Source: an uncultured Bacilli bacterium (GTDB lineage: Bacteria; Bacillota_I; Bacilli_A; RFN20; CAG-826). Taken from it: 34,057 bases of DNA. Below, piece by piece: positions 1 through 34,057 of this stretch (the stretch's first letter is position 1; each line of letters opens with the position of its first letter). A model generated the notes under the pieces. The model searched no databases, was not told where the DNA came from, and saw nothing but the letters and a program-made list of their open reading frames with translations. The stretch spans positions 1 through 34,057 of the forward strand of contig CALVXK010000012.1 in assembly GCA_944369075.1 (NCBI GenBank). Reading direction: 5' to 3'. The position numbers and the translations under genes were made by a program.

Positions 1-28
1 CTAAAGTTAATAAATTTTTCTTTTTCAT
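1..28 (-). CDS. 5' end of a divergent lipoprotein paralogue (runs off left edge)
   Basis: Only the first nine codons are inside the window. Read on the minus strand from the ATG at 28, they give MKKKNLLTL, identical base for base to the start of the lipoprotein gene at 1088. An AAGGAG ribosome binding site lies about 13 nt upstream of the ATG, the same unusually long spacing as in the other copy. The lysine-rich start fits the n-region of a signal peptide. I infer a second member of the same lipoprotein family; nothing beyond the start can be seen. Confidence 0.75.
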
Positions 29-77
29 AAATTAATTTAATCTCCTTAATGTAAAAAGAAAGTTTCTATTAAATAAG
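1..77 (-). repeat. 77-bp perfect inverted repeat, left copy
   Basis: Bases 1-77 are the exact reverse complement of 1039-1115. The repeat holds 5' leader, ribosome binding site, start codon and first nine codons of a lipoprotein gene. Identity ends abruptly at 77; the left end may continue beyond the window. Confidence 0.97.
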
Positions 78-1038
78 TAATATAACCACTAGTATAAATT
101 TGACTTCAGTGATTAGTAAACCTATCTAATCTAATTGTCCTCTTCCATATTATTTACTCTTTTAATTGACAAATTAGAGATAACAATTTTCTTAAGAAGA
201 TTAAATTAATTTTATGTATTTCTATTTAATTAATAGCAGTTTGTGAACCAAAGAAAATAACAATTATTAATCGCTATCTAACTAGTTTAATTAAAATCAA
301 CTCTTGGTTGATTTTAATCTTCTTAGCAACTTGCTAAGAAGTAACAAAGATAACTTAAGACAATATAATAAATAGTTATCAATTCATGTAGATAGTTATC
401 TTTGTTTAAACTTTTTTAAATAAAGCAATAACTATTACATCTTTAATCCACTCTTTCTTAATTAATTAAGTAGATAATACATTAATTAATTCTTTCTAAT
501 TAAGATTATCGTTAAATTAATTTATCTAAATAATGATTTAATAAGTAGTTATAACAATAACAAGTAAACCATTATTTATTTTAATTAATTTTTCGATAAC
601 AAAAAGAGTTACGTTCCATAACGACACCTATATAATACTATCAAAGTTTCTATTATGCAATACATTTTTACTAATTTTCTACTAGTGTCACTTTAAGACT
701 ACTTTTGTAGGTATTCTTTGATTTCTTTTAATTCATGTCTTTCTAAAGAAAGACAAAGATTTAGAGATCAAAGAATATTAACTTTTATTAGTATACAATA
801 ATTAGTCAAAATTAAAAAAAGTTTCTATTATAAAATTTTCTAAACAGCCAATTTTAGTAGGTTTTACTACTAAAAATGACAATTTATCTTTAACTAGGGT
901 TACTATTTTTTTCAAATTTTTCGTACAGCTATAAATAAGATTGTATTTTTCAATTCAAAGGAAACGATTTTAGTTTTTGGGCAGAAAAGTTAACAATTAT
1001 TGATTTTTGATATATAAATTTTTCTTTTTCTTCTAACC
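78..1038. other. Hairpin-rich non-coding spacer between divergent lipoprotein genes
   Basis: About 960 bases with no convincing gene. It holds several perfect inverted repeats: 290-300/308-318 (11 bp); 319-329/331-341 (11 bp, 1-nt centre, 23-bp near-palindrome CTTCTTAGCAA-C-TTGCTAAGAAG); 343-355/394-406 (13 bp); 712-722/767-777 (11 bp) enclosing 737-743/748-754; and 852-860/867-875 (9 bp). The motif AGTTTCTATTA recurs near 62, 643 and 820. These could be transcript hairpins, protein-binding sites or remnants of older genes. No known RNA family was recognised. Confidence 0.6.
990..1018 (+). promoter_or_regulatory. Probable sigma-A promoter of the 1104-residue lipoprotein gene
   Basis: TTAACA at 990-995, a 17-nt spacer, then TATAAA at 1013-1018, about 70 nt before the start codon. 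It sits just outside the 77-bp repeat, so the two divergent genes do not share it. On the other strand a comparable TTTACT-18-TATACT pair lies near 88-117. Confidence 0.5.
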
Positions 1039-1115
1039 CTTATTTAATAGAAACTTTCTTTTTACATTAAGGAGATTAAATTAATTTATGAAAAAGAAAA
1101 ATTTATTAACTTTAG
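1039..1115 (+). repeat. 77-bp perfect inverted repeat, right copy
   Basis: Exact reverse complement of bases 1-77. It covers the transcript leader, the AAGGAG site and the first nine codons of the gene at 1088. This suggests recent duplication or gene conversion between the two divergent genes. Confidence 0.97.
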
Positions 1116-4100
1116 GAGCTTTATGCTTATCCTTAGGTTTAGTTGTTTCTTCTTGTAATCAAACAACTACTCCAGGAACTCCAGGCGAACCAGGAGAGCC
1201 AGGTGAACCAGGACAACCAGGTAAAGATGGTGCAGATGGTAAAACTTATGTTGATGTAATTATTCAAAAAGGCGCAGTCGAAAATGGTACAGTAAAACAA
1301 GATGTTTACTTTGTAACAGAAGGCGCTCATGATAAAATTACATTTACTTTTGAGCCAAGCAATGAAGACGAAAACATTCTTATTAATTTCGAAATTAATG
1401 GCCAACCTGTAACAGATTTTACTCCAGGATCATTAACATACACAATCGCTGATGCTGATGTCTACAGAGGTTCAATTCAAATTACAAACGGTGAATTTAC
1501 TTCTGTCGAAGGTTATGGTCAAAAACTTTTAGATGATGCTGTCAAAGAAATCTTAAAATCAGATAAGTCATTAGACTTAGTAGACTCCAATAGCACACCA
1601 TTCCTTGACCATGATAAAAAAGAATATGTTGAAAATGAATATTCATTAGATGCTACTTCTTCTGTTCAAGATGTTTACAATGATGCTAGTGACGCTGTTG
1701 CTGAAGCAGTCGAAAGCGCATTAAAAGATCATAAAGACGATGTTAAAGCTCAATTAGAAGCAATTGAAACAACAGCTACTGCTGAAGTTACAAAAATTCA
1801 AGACGCTTACAAAAAAGCAGTTGAAGATGCAAAAGTTGTAGCTAAGGAAGATTTATCAGATTTAAGTGACGAATTAACAAGGGAAGAATTTGCTGAAGAA
1901 GATCAAAAAGCTCAATTAGAATCATTCGAAGCTAAAATCGATGCTGCTACTACTATTCAAGGTTTAGGACAAGTTATTAATGGTTCTGAATTAGAAGGCA
2001 CAAATGATACTGGTGATGCAGAAGCTAATTCATTCTATAACTTAAAAAATATTGCTTATAGCGAAATTGACGCAGCATTAGAAAGTGTTATTGGATACGA
2101 AGAAGATTTAGAAGATAACGAAGCATTATTAAATTCTTTGAAAACTTGGGGCGTTGATACAACCAAATTACCATCTGCTATCGCTGAAGAACACTATAAA
2201 ATCGTTTCCAAAGCTACTGAAATCAAATGGGTTGAAGATAAAACAAATGGTAATCATACAGATTTAGGTTATGCTGGTGCAGAAGCTATTGAAGGTTCTG
2301 TTACAAACATTAAAGATACATTACTCGAAAACATTAAAGCTAAATACCATAAAGAAATCAATGAATCAAAAGCGTTAGCAGATTCAGAATCAACAAAAAC
2401 TGCATTACTCGGTGTTGTTGATACAGCAATTTCTAACTTTGCTAATGCAGATACTAACCAAACACTTATGGGATTAGACCAATATGTTGGTACTGGTGTC
2501 GAAGGCTTCTCAAAAGAATCAGCTGGCGGCAAAACAATTACAGATGCTAAAACTGTTAACTTAATTGGCTATATTGAATATTGCTTAGCACAACCTGTTA
2601 ATGGTTCTGTTAATACTGCATTTATGCAAGAAAGATTACAAGCTGCTAAGACTGAGGTTTTATCTCAATTAAAAACTGCAAAAGATGCAATTAAAGATTC
2701 TTTATATCTTGAATTAACATCATATTCTACAGTAAATAAAGTTAGTTATGTTGAAAATAGAACTATTAGTAAAAAAGGCTCTATCTCTTCTACAGTTGTT
2801 AATCCATTCTTTGCAACTAAAACAGAAGAAACAAATTCAGGCTTTGAAGTAACAGGAAAAACTGAAACTACAGCAGTCGAACCAGTTGATGTTAAGAACT
2901 CAAATGGGGTTGCTCAAGAAACAAAACCAACATACAATCTCAATGATTGGTACAACGTTTTAACAAAATGTGAAGTTACTCCTGAAGAAGGTAATTATGG
3001 TACCCTTTATATTCAAGAATGGGCAAACGATCACACTTCTGATTTTAAGAAGATTTACGTTGATGGATTAAAATTATTAAAAGAAAAATTATCAGGTGCA
3101 AAAGCAACTTCATCTAGTGATGCAGAAAACGCAACAGGTGTCTTAGGTGCTATTTCAACTTCAGGATTAAAAGGTTCATTCGTTAAAGGCGAAGATTCTT
3201 GGAGTCAAGTTACTGGCGATGATTATGATTATGTAACAGCTGGTAAACTTGAAACTCAATGGGAAAATATCAATAAGAGTTTAACTTCAACTACCGAAGA
3301 TTCCAAAATTACCAAAGCTGAAGATATCGTTTCATTCGCTGACGGCGTTAAAGAAAACATCGATTCTCTAGTTGCATTAAATGATGGATTCAAAGCATGG
3401 TTTGCAGGAAGTAAAGTTGAAGGTACTGATGTTTATACAGGTGGTATTATCAACAAAGACTTGGCTTACAAGAAATATTTTGATGGAACTACATCCTCTT
3501 TAAGAAAAGCATTTAACGCAGAATTAAATGCTGCATTAAAAGGTGAAGTTACAGAAGTTAGTGTCAAATCATGGACAAAATCAAATAATTTAAATAAATT
3601 ATATGAAGCTGACGTTGCTGAATACCTTGAAAATGCTAAAGAAATTTTAGCTCAAAAGAAAGATGCAATAATTGCTAATAATGCAAGTGTCACAGAAGTT
3701 CCAGCAATTAACAGCGTTTATAATTCATATATTTCATTTGTTGGCCACAAACTAGGTAAAGACAGCCAAGGTAATTGGGTAGTTGATGATGCAAAAGGTA
3801 CATATTCAGGATATCTTTGCAAAACAATTGCTAGTGTTGATACATGGTTAAAAGACGCTGGTGAAGCATTAACTAATAAAAAAGTTAGTTTAAGCCCAGC
3901 TGTTGAAATAGAAACTACTAATTCAACGACATATACACCAGCAGGTTCGACAGATTCATATAGTTGGCAAAATAATAAAGATTTTGCATTAAGTGCTGAA
4001 GAAGTTACTAAAGAAGATAAAACAACATATACTCTTTATACAGCTACAGGTACTGCTATTGCTCAACCAAAAGATAACAAGGCTGTTAATGCTTTCTGGG

Positions 4101-4402
4101 GCACTTCAGTAGAAGAAAACTCTAAAGTATATGTATTACAATTACACTTTGCTGCTGATACAAAACTTAAAACAGGTTATGTTGATACAGTTGGAACTGC
4201 TTTAGGTTCAGTTGGTGGTTCTGGTGTAACACAAGTTAAACAAAAAGATGTTGGTAGTGATGGCTCAATTACATTCGTTGTTGGTGCTGGAAAATTGAGC
4301 GATGAACTTGATTATACTGACAACGTATTAGCAATTGAAGTTTTAGGAGCCGATGGAAGCGTTGTTGCAACATATTACTTCGATGCATCTAATTTAAAAT
4401 AA
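1088..4402 (+). CDS. Large lipoprotein with collagen-like Gly-X-Y stretch
   Basis: A secreted, lipid-anchored surface protein of 1104 residues; function unknown. Residues 1-22 form a lipoprotein signal peptide (MKKK n-region, hydrophobic core) ending in the lipobox VSSC, with Cys23 as the predicted lipid-modified residue. A Thr/Pro linker leads into Gly-X-Y triplets at about residues 30-51 (PGEPGEPGEPGQPG type). The rest is long, acidic, Ala/Glu/Lys-rich and largely helical (about 145-560), with more Ser/Thr-rich, probably beta-rich parts toward the C-terminus. No enzymatic motif was recognised. The start is supported by AAGGAG 13 nt upstream and by the identical start of the divergent paralogue. 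A strong terminator follows. Base composition is less AT-extreme than in neighbouring minus-strand genes, as expected for a highly expressed surface protein. An adhesin or structural role is only a guess. Confidence 0.85.
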   Translation: MKKKNLLTLGALCLSLGLVVSSCNQTTTPGTPGEPGEPGEPGQPGKDGADGKTYVDVIIQKGAVENGTVKQDVYFVTEGAHDKITFTFEPSNEDENILINFEINGQPVTDFTPGSLTYTIADADVYRGSIQITNGEFTSVEGYGQKLLDDAVKEILKSDKSLDLVDSNSTPFLDHDKKEYVENEYSLDATSSVQDVYNDASDAVAEAVESALKDHKDDVKAQLEAIETTATAEVTKIQDAYKKAVEDAKVVAKEDLSDLSDELTREEFAEEDQKAQLESFEAKIDAATTIQGLGQVINGSELEGTNDTGDAEANSFYNLKNIAYSEIDAALESVIGYEEDLEDNEALLNSLKTWGVDTTKLPSAIAEEHYKIVSKATEIKWVEDKTNGNHTDLGYAGAEAIEGSVTNIKDTLLENIKAKYHKEINESKALADSESTKTALLGVVDTAISNFANADTNQTLMGLDQYVGTGVEGFSKESAGGKTITDAKTVNLIGYIEYCLAQPVNGSVNTAFMQERLQAAKTEVLSQLKTAKDAIKDSLYLELTSYSTVNKVSYVENRTISKKGSISSTVVNPFFATKTEETNSGFEVTGKTETTAVEPVDVKNSNGVAQETKPTYNLNDWYNVLTKCEVTPEEGNYGTLYIQEWANDHTSDFKKIYVDGLKLLKEKLSGAKATSSSDAENATGVLGAISTSGLKGSFVKGEDSWSQVTGDDYDYVTAGKLETQWENINKSLTSTTEDSKITKAEDIVSFADGVKENIDSLVALNDGFKAWFAGSKVEGTDVYTGGIINKDLAYKKYFDGTTSSLRKAFNAELNAALKGEVTEVSVKSWTKSNNLNKLYEADVAEYLENAKEILAQKKDAIIANNASVTEVPAINSVYNSYISFVGHKLGKDSQGNWVVDDAKGTYSGYLCKTIASVDTWLKDAGEALTNKKVSLSPAVEIETTNSTTYTPAGSTDSYSWQNNKDFALSAEEVTKEDKTTYTLYTATGTAIAQPKDNKAVNAFWGTSVEENSKVYVLQLHFAADTKLKTGYVDTVGTALGSVGGSGVTQVKQKDVGSDGSITFVVGAGKLSDELDYTDNVLAIEVLGADGSVVATYYFDASNLK

Positions 4403-4422
4403 TTAATTAGATAAAGATTATT

Positions 4423-4451
4423 AAAAACAGGAAGTTTTACTTCCTGTTTTT
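4423..4451 (+). terminator. Rho-independent terminator of the lipoprotein gene
   Basis: A 12-bp perfect stem (AAAAACAGGAAG / CTTCCTGTTTTT) with a 5-nt loop, ending in a T-rich run, 21 bases after the stop codon. Confidence 0.9.
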
Positions 4452-4490
4452 ATTTATTTAATAAAGAGATATATGCTTAAAGAATTAATT

Positions 4491-5543
4491 TTAAATGTAA
4501 TCTTCTATGTTCTTAATAGCATCTTCTACACTAATATATTCATTAACGTTAACGCTATTAAATTGATGATTAAAGAATGTTCTTTGTCTTTTAGCGTATT
4601 TAATACTATTACGAATTATTTCTTCTTTGACATTATCTAAATCACTACGAATAAGATTATTATTATCTTTATCGATAAACTCTTTATATCCAATTGCTTT
4701 AAAAGAATTAGAAGAAGAACCATATTTAGTTAAAATAGATTTAACTTCATTAAGTAGTAAGTTATCTTTAAACATTACTTCTTCTACTCTTTCTTTAATC
4801 TTTTGATCTAATATCTCTTTAGAAGGATTAATGTAAATAAATCTAATTAAATCATTAGACTTATTATTAAAATATAGTCTATCTTTACCATTATCATTTA
4901 ACTCATCTTTAGTTAAATGATAATGTTCATTTATATATAAAGATCTAAGTAATCTTTTACGGTTATTATTTCCAATCCTAATAGCATCTTCTTTATCTAG
5001 AAGAAGTAACTTATTAAATAATTCTAGATTACTTAGATCTTTATATTTAGTTTCATAATCTTTTTCTTCTTTATTTATTTGATTATCATCTTCTTTATAG
5101 AGATGATAATCAAATAATGATGCTTTAATATATAATCCGCTACCTCCTACAAATATAAGGTTATAGTTAGATATATATTTTCTTATTAATTCTCTAGATA
5201 TATTTTGATAGAAATAAATATCATTAGATTCATTAGGATATAAGTAATCATAAAGAAGTAATGATTTAGTTCCATCTAAAGAAGAAACTAATTCTAGTTC
5301 TTCTTTAGATGGTTTAGCTGTACCTATATCCATTTCTTTATATATTTGATAAGCATCAAAATTAATGATTTTAGCTTTATTTACTCCTCCTAAATAAGTA
5401 AGTAAAAAAGAAGCTAACTTCGATTTAGAAGAAGCTGTTGGTCCCATAATTACATAGATATGGGTATTATTTTTAGAGTTATCTAATTCTTCAACAAAGT
5501 TTTTGGAATCTAAATCATTTTTAAGTGTTTTAATTAATTTCAT
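4491..5543 (-). CDS. miaA: tRNA dimethylallyltransferase MiaA
   Basis: Transfers a dimethylallyl group to A37 of tRNAs reading UNN codons; MiaB then acts on the product, and miaB lies about 3.6 kb upstream on the same strand. Seen: a P-loop GPTASSKS at about residues 34-41 (family GPTASGKT, so Gly to Ser and Thr to Ser), FDAYQIYKEMDIGTAKP matching the family DSxQVYxGMDIGTAKP with Ser changed to Ala, and GGSGLYIKA. At 350 residues it is slightly longer than the usual ~310, mainly because about 28 residues precede the P-loop. It begins 5 nt after the stop of the preceding gene and lacks a clear Shine-Dalgarno site, so translational coupling is likely. Identity is secure; the altered P-loop positions are conservative. 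Confidence 0.9.
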   Translation of the reverse strand: MKLIKTLKNDLDSKNFVEELDNSKNNTHIYVIMGPTASSKSKLASFLLTYLGGVNKAKIINFDAYQIYKEMDIGTAKPSKEELELVSSLDGTKSLLLYDYLYPNESNDIYFYQNISRELIRKYISNYNLIFVGGSGLYIKASLFDYHLYKEDDNQINKEEKDYETKYKDLSNLELFNKLLLLDKEDAIRIGNNNRKRLLRSLYINEHYHLTKDELNDNGKDRLYFNNKSNDLIRFIYINPSKEILDQKIKERVEEVMFKDNLLLNEVKSILTKYGSSSNSFKAIGYKEFIDKDNNNLIRSDLDNVKEEIIRNSIKYAKRQRTFFNHQFNSVNVNEYISVEDAIKNIEDYI

Positions 5544-33967: not shown

Positions 33968-33990
33968 CCGAATATTATTCGGCTCTTTAA
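33968..33990 (+). terminator. Probable terminator of the tRNA cluster
   Basis: CCGAAT (33968-33973) pairs with ATTCGG (33977-33982), 3-nt loop, followed by CTCTTTAAA. The T-run is short. Confidence 0.6.
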
Positions 33991-34057
33991 ACTTTACAGG
34001 GGTTTCCGGGGGTTTAGGGCAAAATTAACAAAAATTCTTTAAATTTAAAGGGGGACG
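33991..34057. other. G-run-bearing tail after the tRNA cluster
   Basis: No gene is seen. Runs of 4, 5, 3 and 5 G occur at 33999-34002, 34008-34012, 34017-34019 and 34050-34054, standing out against the AT-rich surroundings. The first three are separated by TTTCC and TTTA. The window ends here. Confidence 0.5.

Follow-up and report, generated by a model that had tools for sequence, protein, structure and literature searches.

An exact inverted repeat at the start of a contig from an uncultured Bacilli bacterium rather probably represents two of the three copies of a leader cassette in a lipoprotein switch resembling the Vpma, Vsp and Vsa systems. By analogy with these, we infer that a recombinase acts on the leaders, that inversions occur, and that the upstream sequence U1 is the sole expression site, with a single promoter and silencing elsewhere. 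The locus is probably a small, phase-variable locus for surface lipoproteins, and the sequence comparisons given below support the view that these leaders are, or were until recently, a target of recombination. The window, i.e. the whole stretch of DNA that was analysed, comprises 34,057 nucleotides and is an entire contig (C12) of the genome G000 (1.25 Mb, 35 contigs), with base 1 being the contig end. The parts of the locus are collected in Table 1.

Table 1. Features of the lipoprotein locus in the window and of the recombinase genes on contig C9 and in the sister species G011.
Feature	Position	Strand	Basis or remark
Gene B leader copy, truncated by the contig end; untranslated 5' part, RBS and nine initial codons	1..77	-	matches 1039-1115 exactly as reverse complement; aligns collinearly with C7:14268-14354 (leader B of G011)
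U1, the B-facing half of the spacer; conserved, non-coding, with stems; expression region (proposed)	78..700	-	putative promoter role
Weak promoter-like core, TTGCAT, 17 nt, TATTAT; TATAAT also on plus strand	631..660	-	read by eye, conserved in G011; consensus scans at chance
U2, spacer half facing gene A; not conserved except last ~25 bases	701..1038	+	identity with G011 only 50% over 701-1013
17-nt tract exactly antisense to gene A start region (1090-1106)	1014..1030	+	inverted repeat I4, flank alignment, folding z-scores
Gene A leader copy, sharing at least 88 bp with the other copies; proposed recombination site	1039..1126	+	
Lipoprotein gene A, 1104 aa, lipobox, collagen-like stretch	1088..4402	+	
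miaA (IPP transferase), outer locus flank, same neighbour in G011	4491..5543	-	Pfam IPPT E 1.9e-42; alignment to G011
Tyrosine recombinase gene	C9 316-1506	-	Phage_integrase E 9.5e-15; also integrase PHROGs
Tyrosine recombinase gene	G011 C7 20702-21904	leftward	

The inverted repeat and its true extent

As described in the initial annotation, bases 1-77 and 1039-1115 are exact reverse complements; from composition alone, about 2e-31 such pairs would be expected in 1115 bp. The repeat spans a leader of 48-49 nt, including AAGGAG, and the first nine codons of the gene at 1088-4402, again as had been claimed. The length of 77 bp, however, could not be upheld. Contig ends of G000 were compared, leaving out six contigs that matched each other over all 600 bases in both orientations, and exactly 77 bp were found to be common to another end in 27 of the approximately 58 readable ends. 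Such sharing indicates that 77 is the k of the assembler and that the length is an artefact. The true common leader is of at least 88 bp. Downstream of the 77 bp, at least 11 bp more are common to the window and contig C34, and the first 77-mer of C34 ends precisely at the first difference between its gene and that of the window. Contig C9 starts with the identical 77 bp. The sharp end of the identity, also described earlier, holds good only upstream, where the three copies already disagree at the first base (T, G or A). On the downstream side, it does not, as the identity continues, and in the sister species G011 it reaches 113-191 nt from the leader start, into coding DNA.

The assembly can be pictured as a graph node, in which a leader of at least 88 bp is entered by three upstream sequences (the window from 78, the window to 1038 and C9 from 78) and exits into at least two lipoprotein genes. 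The G000 assembly joined only U2 to A, leaving U1, the third upstream flank (U3) and B open. A repeat of 88 bp should be easily crossed by ordinary reads, and the G011 assembly was resolved through repeats longer than, or at least as long as, this. The open junctions may hint at mixed junctions in the population; low coverage or a mixture of strains would also fit. At the right end of the window, the last 77 bp (33981-34057) are common to the right ends of contigs C6 and C10, which points to another assembly-breaking repeat at that place. Perfect contig-end repeats having the k-mer length of the assembler are, in this sense, real repeats whose true extent is hidden.

It might be argued that the inverted pair is an assembly fold-back that is absent from the genome, given that the contig begins at base 1 and that its repeat has the length of the assembler's k, 77. 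This is highly improbable, as G011, a different species with an assembly of its own, has this inverted pair, spacer included, in the interior of a contig of 77.8 kb. The pair is, therefore, taken as genuine, a fold-back or chimera being ruled out for it, and such an explanation survives only for the number 77.

The locus in related species and its recombinase

The sister species G011 (CALVOX010000007.1, uncultured Bacilli bacterium BRZ_KS__bin22, with a contig name in the SPAdes style) has a recombinase 90% identical to that of G000, and its 77.8-kb contig, C7, holds the intact locus. The order is miaA, lipoprotein A (leftward), leader, a spacer of about 0.9 kb, leader, lipoprotein B (rightward), lipoprotein C (leftward), leader and recombinase (leftward), beyond which lie a DJ-1/PfpI gene and, further on, ribosomal genes. 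Three G000 contigs match this arrangement in both order and orientation: the window covers A and the spacer, C34 covers B, and C9 covers the recombinase side. The two divergent lipoprotein genes first described are thus only partly borne out in the window, from which the second gene is absent apart from 28 nt. On the G011 contig, the second, divergent lipoprotein is indeed found beyond the spacer. Gene B itself is off the contig and is probably C34 39-3041. The search for more leader copies in the genome was also successful, with a third copy on C9, downstream of the tyrosine recombinase gene. At the locus, three lipoprotein genes are present in G011 and two were found in G000; gene C was not found in the G000 assembly. 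Translated with the standard code, the large genes stay open throughout.

The lipoprotein of C34 (39-3041, 1000 aa) and that of the window share the same signal peptide and lipobox as well as a collagen-like stretch, while their bodies are only 33% identical. Across the paralogues, the bodies are 33-45% identical, as in old paralogues. Between the species, lipoprotein B (C34 39-3041 versus G011 C7 14316-17303) is 86% identical over residues 1-829, and its four-fold sites are 87% identical, above the 62-80% of the neighbouring genes. The C-terminal part beyond residue 829 is unrelated between the species, as if exchanged. The G011 lipoprotein A (C7 10173-13325) has an in-frame TAA at codon 882 of about 1050, with the same frame open beyond.

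The recombinase gene of C9 reads towards the third leader and ends about 240 bp upstream of it. Between the two lies an intrinsic terminator, the hairpins of which are conserved; a stem adjoining the T-run of the terminator carries a compensatory change between the species, GTGTAACAAG/CTTGTTACAC versus GTGTAATAAG/CTTATTACAC. In the protein, R235, K276, R342 and Y375 do not vary among ten relatives. Where histidine is usual, nearly the whole subfamily reads HGFxR and LLGQ, and the presence of these at the usual catalytic histidines argues against the switch. In a search of 224 genomes of the family, strong relatives of the recombinase were found only in this genus. Recombinases 40-48% identical occur in five species beside a tRNA gene and a MerR-like gene, in one conserved place. 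G023 has a related but distant recombinase (40%; 3653-5113 of sequence L140), oppositely oriented and adjacent to the DJ-1 gene; on another of its contigs, a lipoprotein truncated by the contig end adjoins miaA. Searches of the leader and the recombinase against viral contigs gave no match. The leader was also considered as the attachment site of a simple integrated element. This was rejected, since A and C, the two direct copies, do not enclose the recombinase, and no further copy was found on its far side.

Three further species, G020, G015 and G017, have homologous lipoproteins at the matching locus beside DJ-1/PfpI, with no recombinase there. The matching locus of G020 (C2 78001-104000) holds four lipoproteins whose leaders differ, again including a divergent pair about 770 bp apart. 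Some of its leaders have a hairpin immediately before the RBS, and a Fic-domain gene lies near the DJ-1 gene.

Conservation of the leaders and their flanks

The three leaders are 98-100% identical to each other, both within and between G000 and G011. This near-identity covers the 48 nt before the ATG (98-100%) and continues into the signal peptide. That such leaders precede bodies of 33-45% identity, with a recombinase beside the third copy in both species, argues for the switch. Between G000 and G011, the leader is about 99-100% identical, whereas the four-fold sites of neighbouring genes are 62-80% identical, and this is in favour of the switch as well. In G020, G015 and G017, which have no recombinase at the locus, the paralogous leaders are mostly 55-70% identical and the matching leaders across species 79-96%; the divergence between paralogues in these species again speaks for the switch. 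Against it stands one leader pair of G020, which is 98% identical without a sharp upstream boundary and without a recombinase at the locus. The recombination at the leaders that was first suggested gains support, in part, from the contrast between leaders and proteins, from the recombinase gene adjoining the third leader and from the mostly diverged leaders of the relatives lacking it at the locus.

Identical runs of at least 77 bp between G000 and G011 number 39 in 28 kb, many of them probably in conserved genes. The cross-species identity of the leader is, therefore, weak evidence when taken alone, and its value as a proof of selection is lessened. It is improbable, though conceivable, that strong selection preserves the leader as a common regulatory element, such as a signal for RNA binding or translation, with no recombination involved. 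Its identity between the species agrees with this, as does the finding that long identical runs between them are not rare. However, the matching leaders in related species vary freely between paralogues, and functional selection would not fix every base, third codon positions included, in three copies.

The main rival to the switch is that RecA-type gene conversion keeps the leaders and the signal-peptide codons alike, the integrase being a relic of a mobile element, with no programmed switch at all. We consider this rather unlikely, yet it deserves more weight than selection on the leader. Gene conversion is likely to have occurred as well, because the identity enters coding DNA and ends only 113-191 nt from the leader start. 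The longest of these stretches, found between B and C of G011, extends into coding DNA by up to 191 nt, which is beyond what a site-specific core needs and argues against the switch. The apparent exchange of the C-terminal part of B between the species, the RecA encoded in the window, and the position of the 43-48% recombinase relatives beside a tRNA gene or in a phage-like setting, like mobile-element integrases, are further points on the side of conversion. Nevertheless, gene conversion alone leaves unexplained the sharp upstream boundary in all three copies, the identity between species in non-coding DNA, and the failure of species without a recombinase at the locus to homogenise their leaders.

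The initial annotation had also stated that the promoters differ on the two sides. The flanks do differ, one of the three being unlike the other two, but no promoter could be called above chance. The A and C flanks share ATTTTTCTTTTTCTTCTAA directly before the leader, whereas the B flank differs and has no such tract. In C, the tract doubles as the T-run of the recombinase terminator. The tract has complementarity to the region of the start codon, over 17 nt in the case of A, and an antisense fold is predicted for A of both species and C of G011, with z-scores of -3.2, -2.9 and -2.1. In the G000 C leader, the duplex forms in the prediction, although not better than in shuffles (0.1), and this non-significant fold counts against the switch; in the B leader, it does not form (0.16).

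U1 is 92.8% identical to its G011 counterpart, as compared with 62-80% at the four-fold sites of neighbouring genes. Its inverted repeats or stems keep their pairing between the two species, and no ORF of at least 30 aa is present at 78-700. This conserved non-coding half of the spacer fits a single expression region facing B; as consensus promoter scans of the region stayed at chance level, it is from this fit that we infer such a region. Rfam gave only sub-threshold matches (microRNA, snoRNA and thermometer families), taken as chance. Elsewhere in the genus, a long match to the spacer was seen in G011 only. A search for a recombination core or dyad in the leader did not rise above shuffles.

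The proposed switch and known systems

In the proposed switch, the leader cassette would combine an untranslated 5' part of about 48 nt, RBS included, with the signal-peptide codons, and the recombinase would exchange strands between its copies in analogy to Vpma, Vsp and Vsa. An exchange between A and B would invert the spacer of about 0.96 kb, and one between B and C would invert a block of about 6 kb with genes B and C; an exchange between A and C, which are direct repeats, would lead to deletion. Because the crossover would fall within the common leader and signal-peptide sequence, the reading frame would be kept after either inversion. The inversions would bring A, B or C behind U1, the conserved spacer end facing B, which would be the only upstream context to drive expression. 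The other sites would be silent: leader C would stand behind the recombinase's own terminator and A behind a diverged flank, both with the tract antisense to the start codon. The absence of the A/C tract from B, the terminator before leader C and a layout that lets each gene reach U1 all argue for the switch.

The exchange of two promoters by one inversion of about 960 bp, as first put forward, is too simple for a system of three leaders and three genes. The inversion of the spacer was not seen either, as its orientation relative to miaA is the same in both genomes compared (G000 and G011). This common orientation, along with the chance-level results for the core and the promoter scans, argues against the switch. 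As a tentative extension, it is possible that a minimal switch of three genes and one expression site was derived from a mobile-element integrase independently of the mycoplasma systems, and that its idle genes are doubly silenced, by the lack of a promoter and by the tract pairing with the start codon. If the switch is real, the inversion strategy of mycoplasmas, with one promoter and many lipoproteins, would extend to an uncultured species of Bacilli with the standard code, and its recombinase would have close relatives found only in one genus. The locus, thus, offers a compact three-gene system for testing.

The closest comparison is with the Vpma locus of Mycoplasma agalactiae, which encodes the recombinase Xer1 and has one promoter, with the 72 nt ahead of the start codon as putative sites (PMC2268961). 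Both have a family of surface lipoprotein genes in one locus, a near-identical stretch before every start codon, a tyrosine recombinase gene within the locus and terminators between genes. Both also have genes in the two orientations, so that inversions can reach one promoter, as is proposed here. The presence of the same elements in the Vpma locus (PMC2268961) argues for the switch. The differences are that Vpma has six genes as against three here, and that the shared stretch here covers the signal peptide as well. Moreover, the recombinase here resembles phage integrases, in a comparison with family profiles only, and the host is not a mycoplasma and uses the standard code. The locus would, therefore, work like a Vpma-type locus; likeness in working rather than membership is claimed, the inversions and the single promoter being proposed here from analogy.

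Conserved gene starts are also seen in the Vsp system of Mycoplasma bovis and the Vsa system of Mycoplasma pulmonis, where site-specific inversion puts a promoter before silent lipoprotein genes (PMC2268961). The segment that is moved in Vsa includes 714 nt of coding DNA (PMC2268961), whereas the shared part here ends within or soon after the signal peptide. Invertible promoters, such as those of Mpl in Mycoplasma penetrans and of the Bacteroides surface loci, are similar in that inverted repeats enclose a short non-coding segment ahead of surface genes. Unlike in those systems, both repeat arms here contain gene starts, and the third copy would allow a second, larger inversion.
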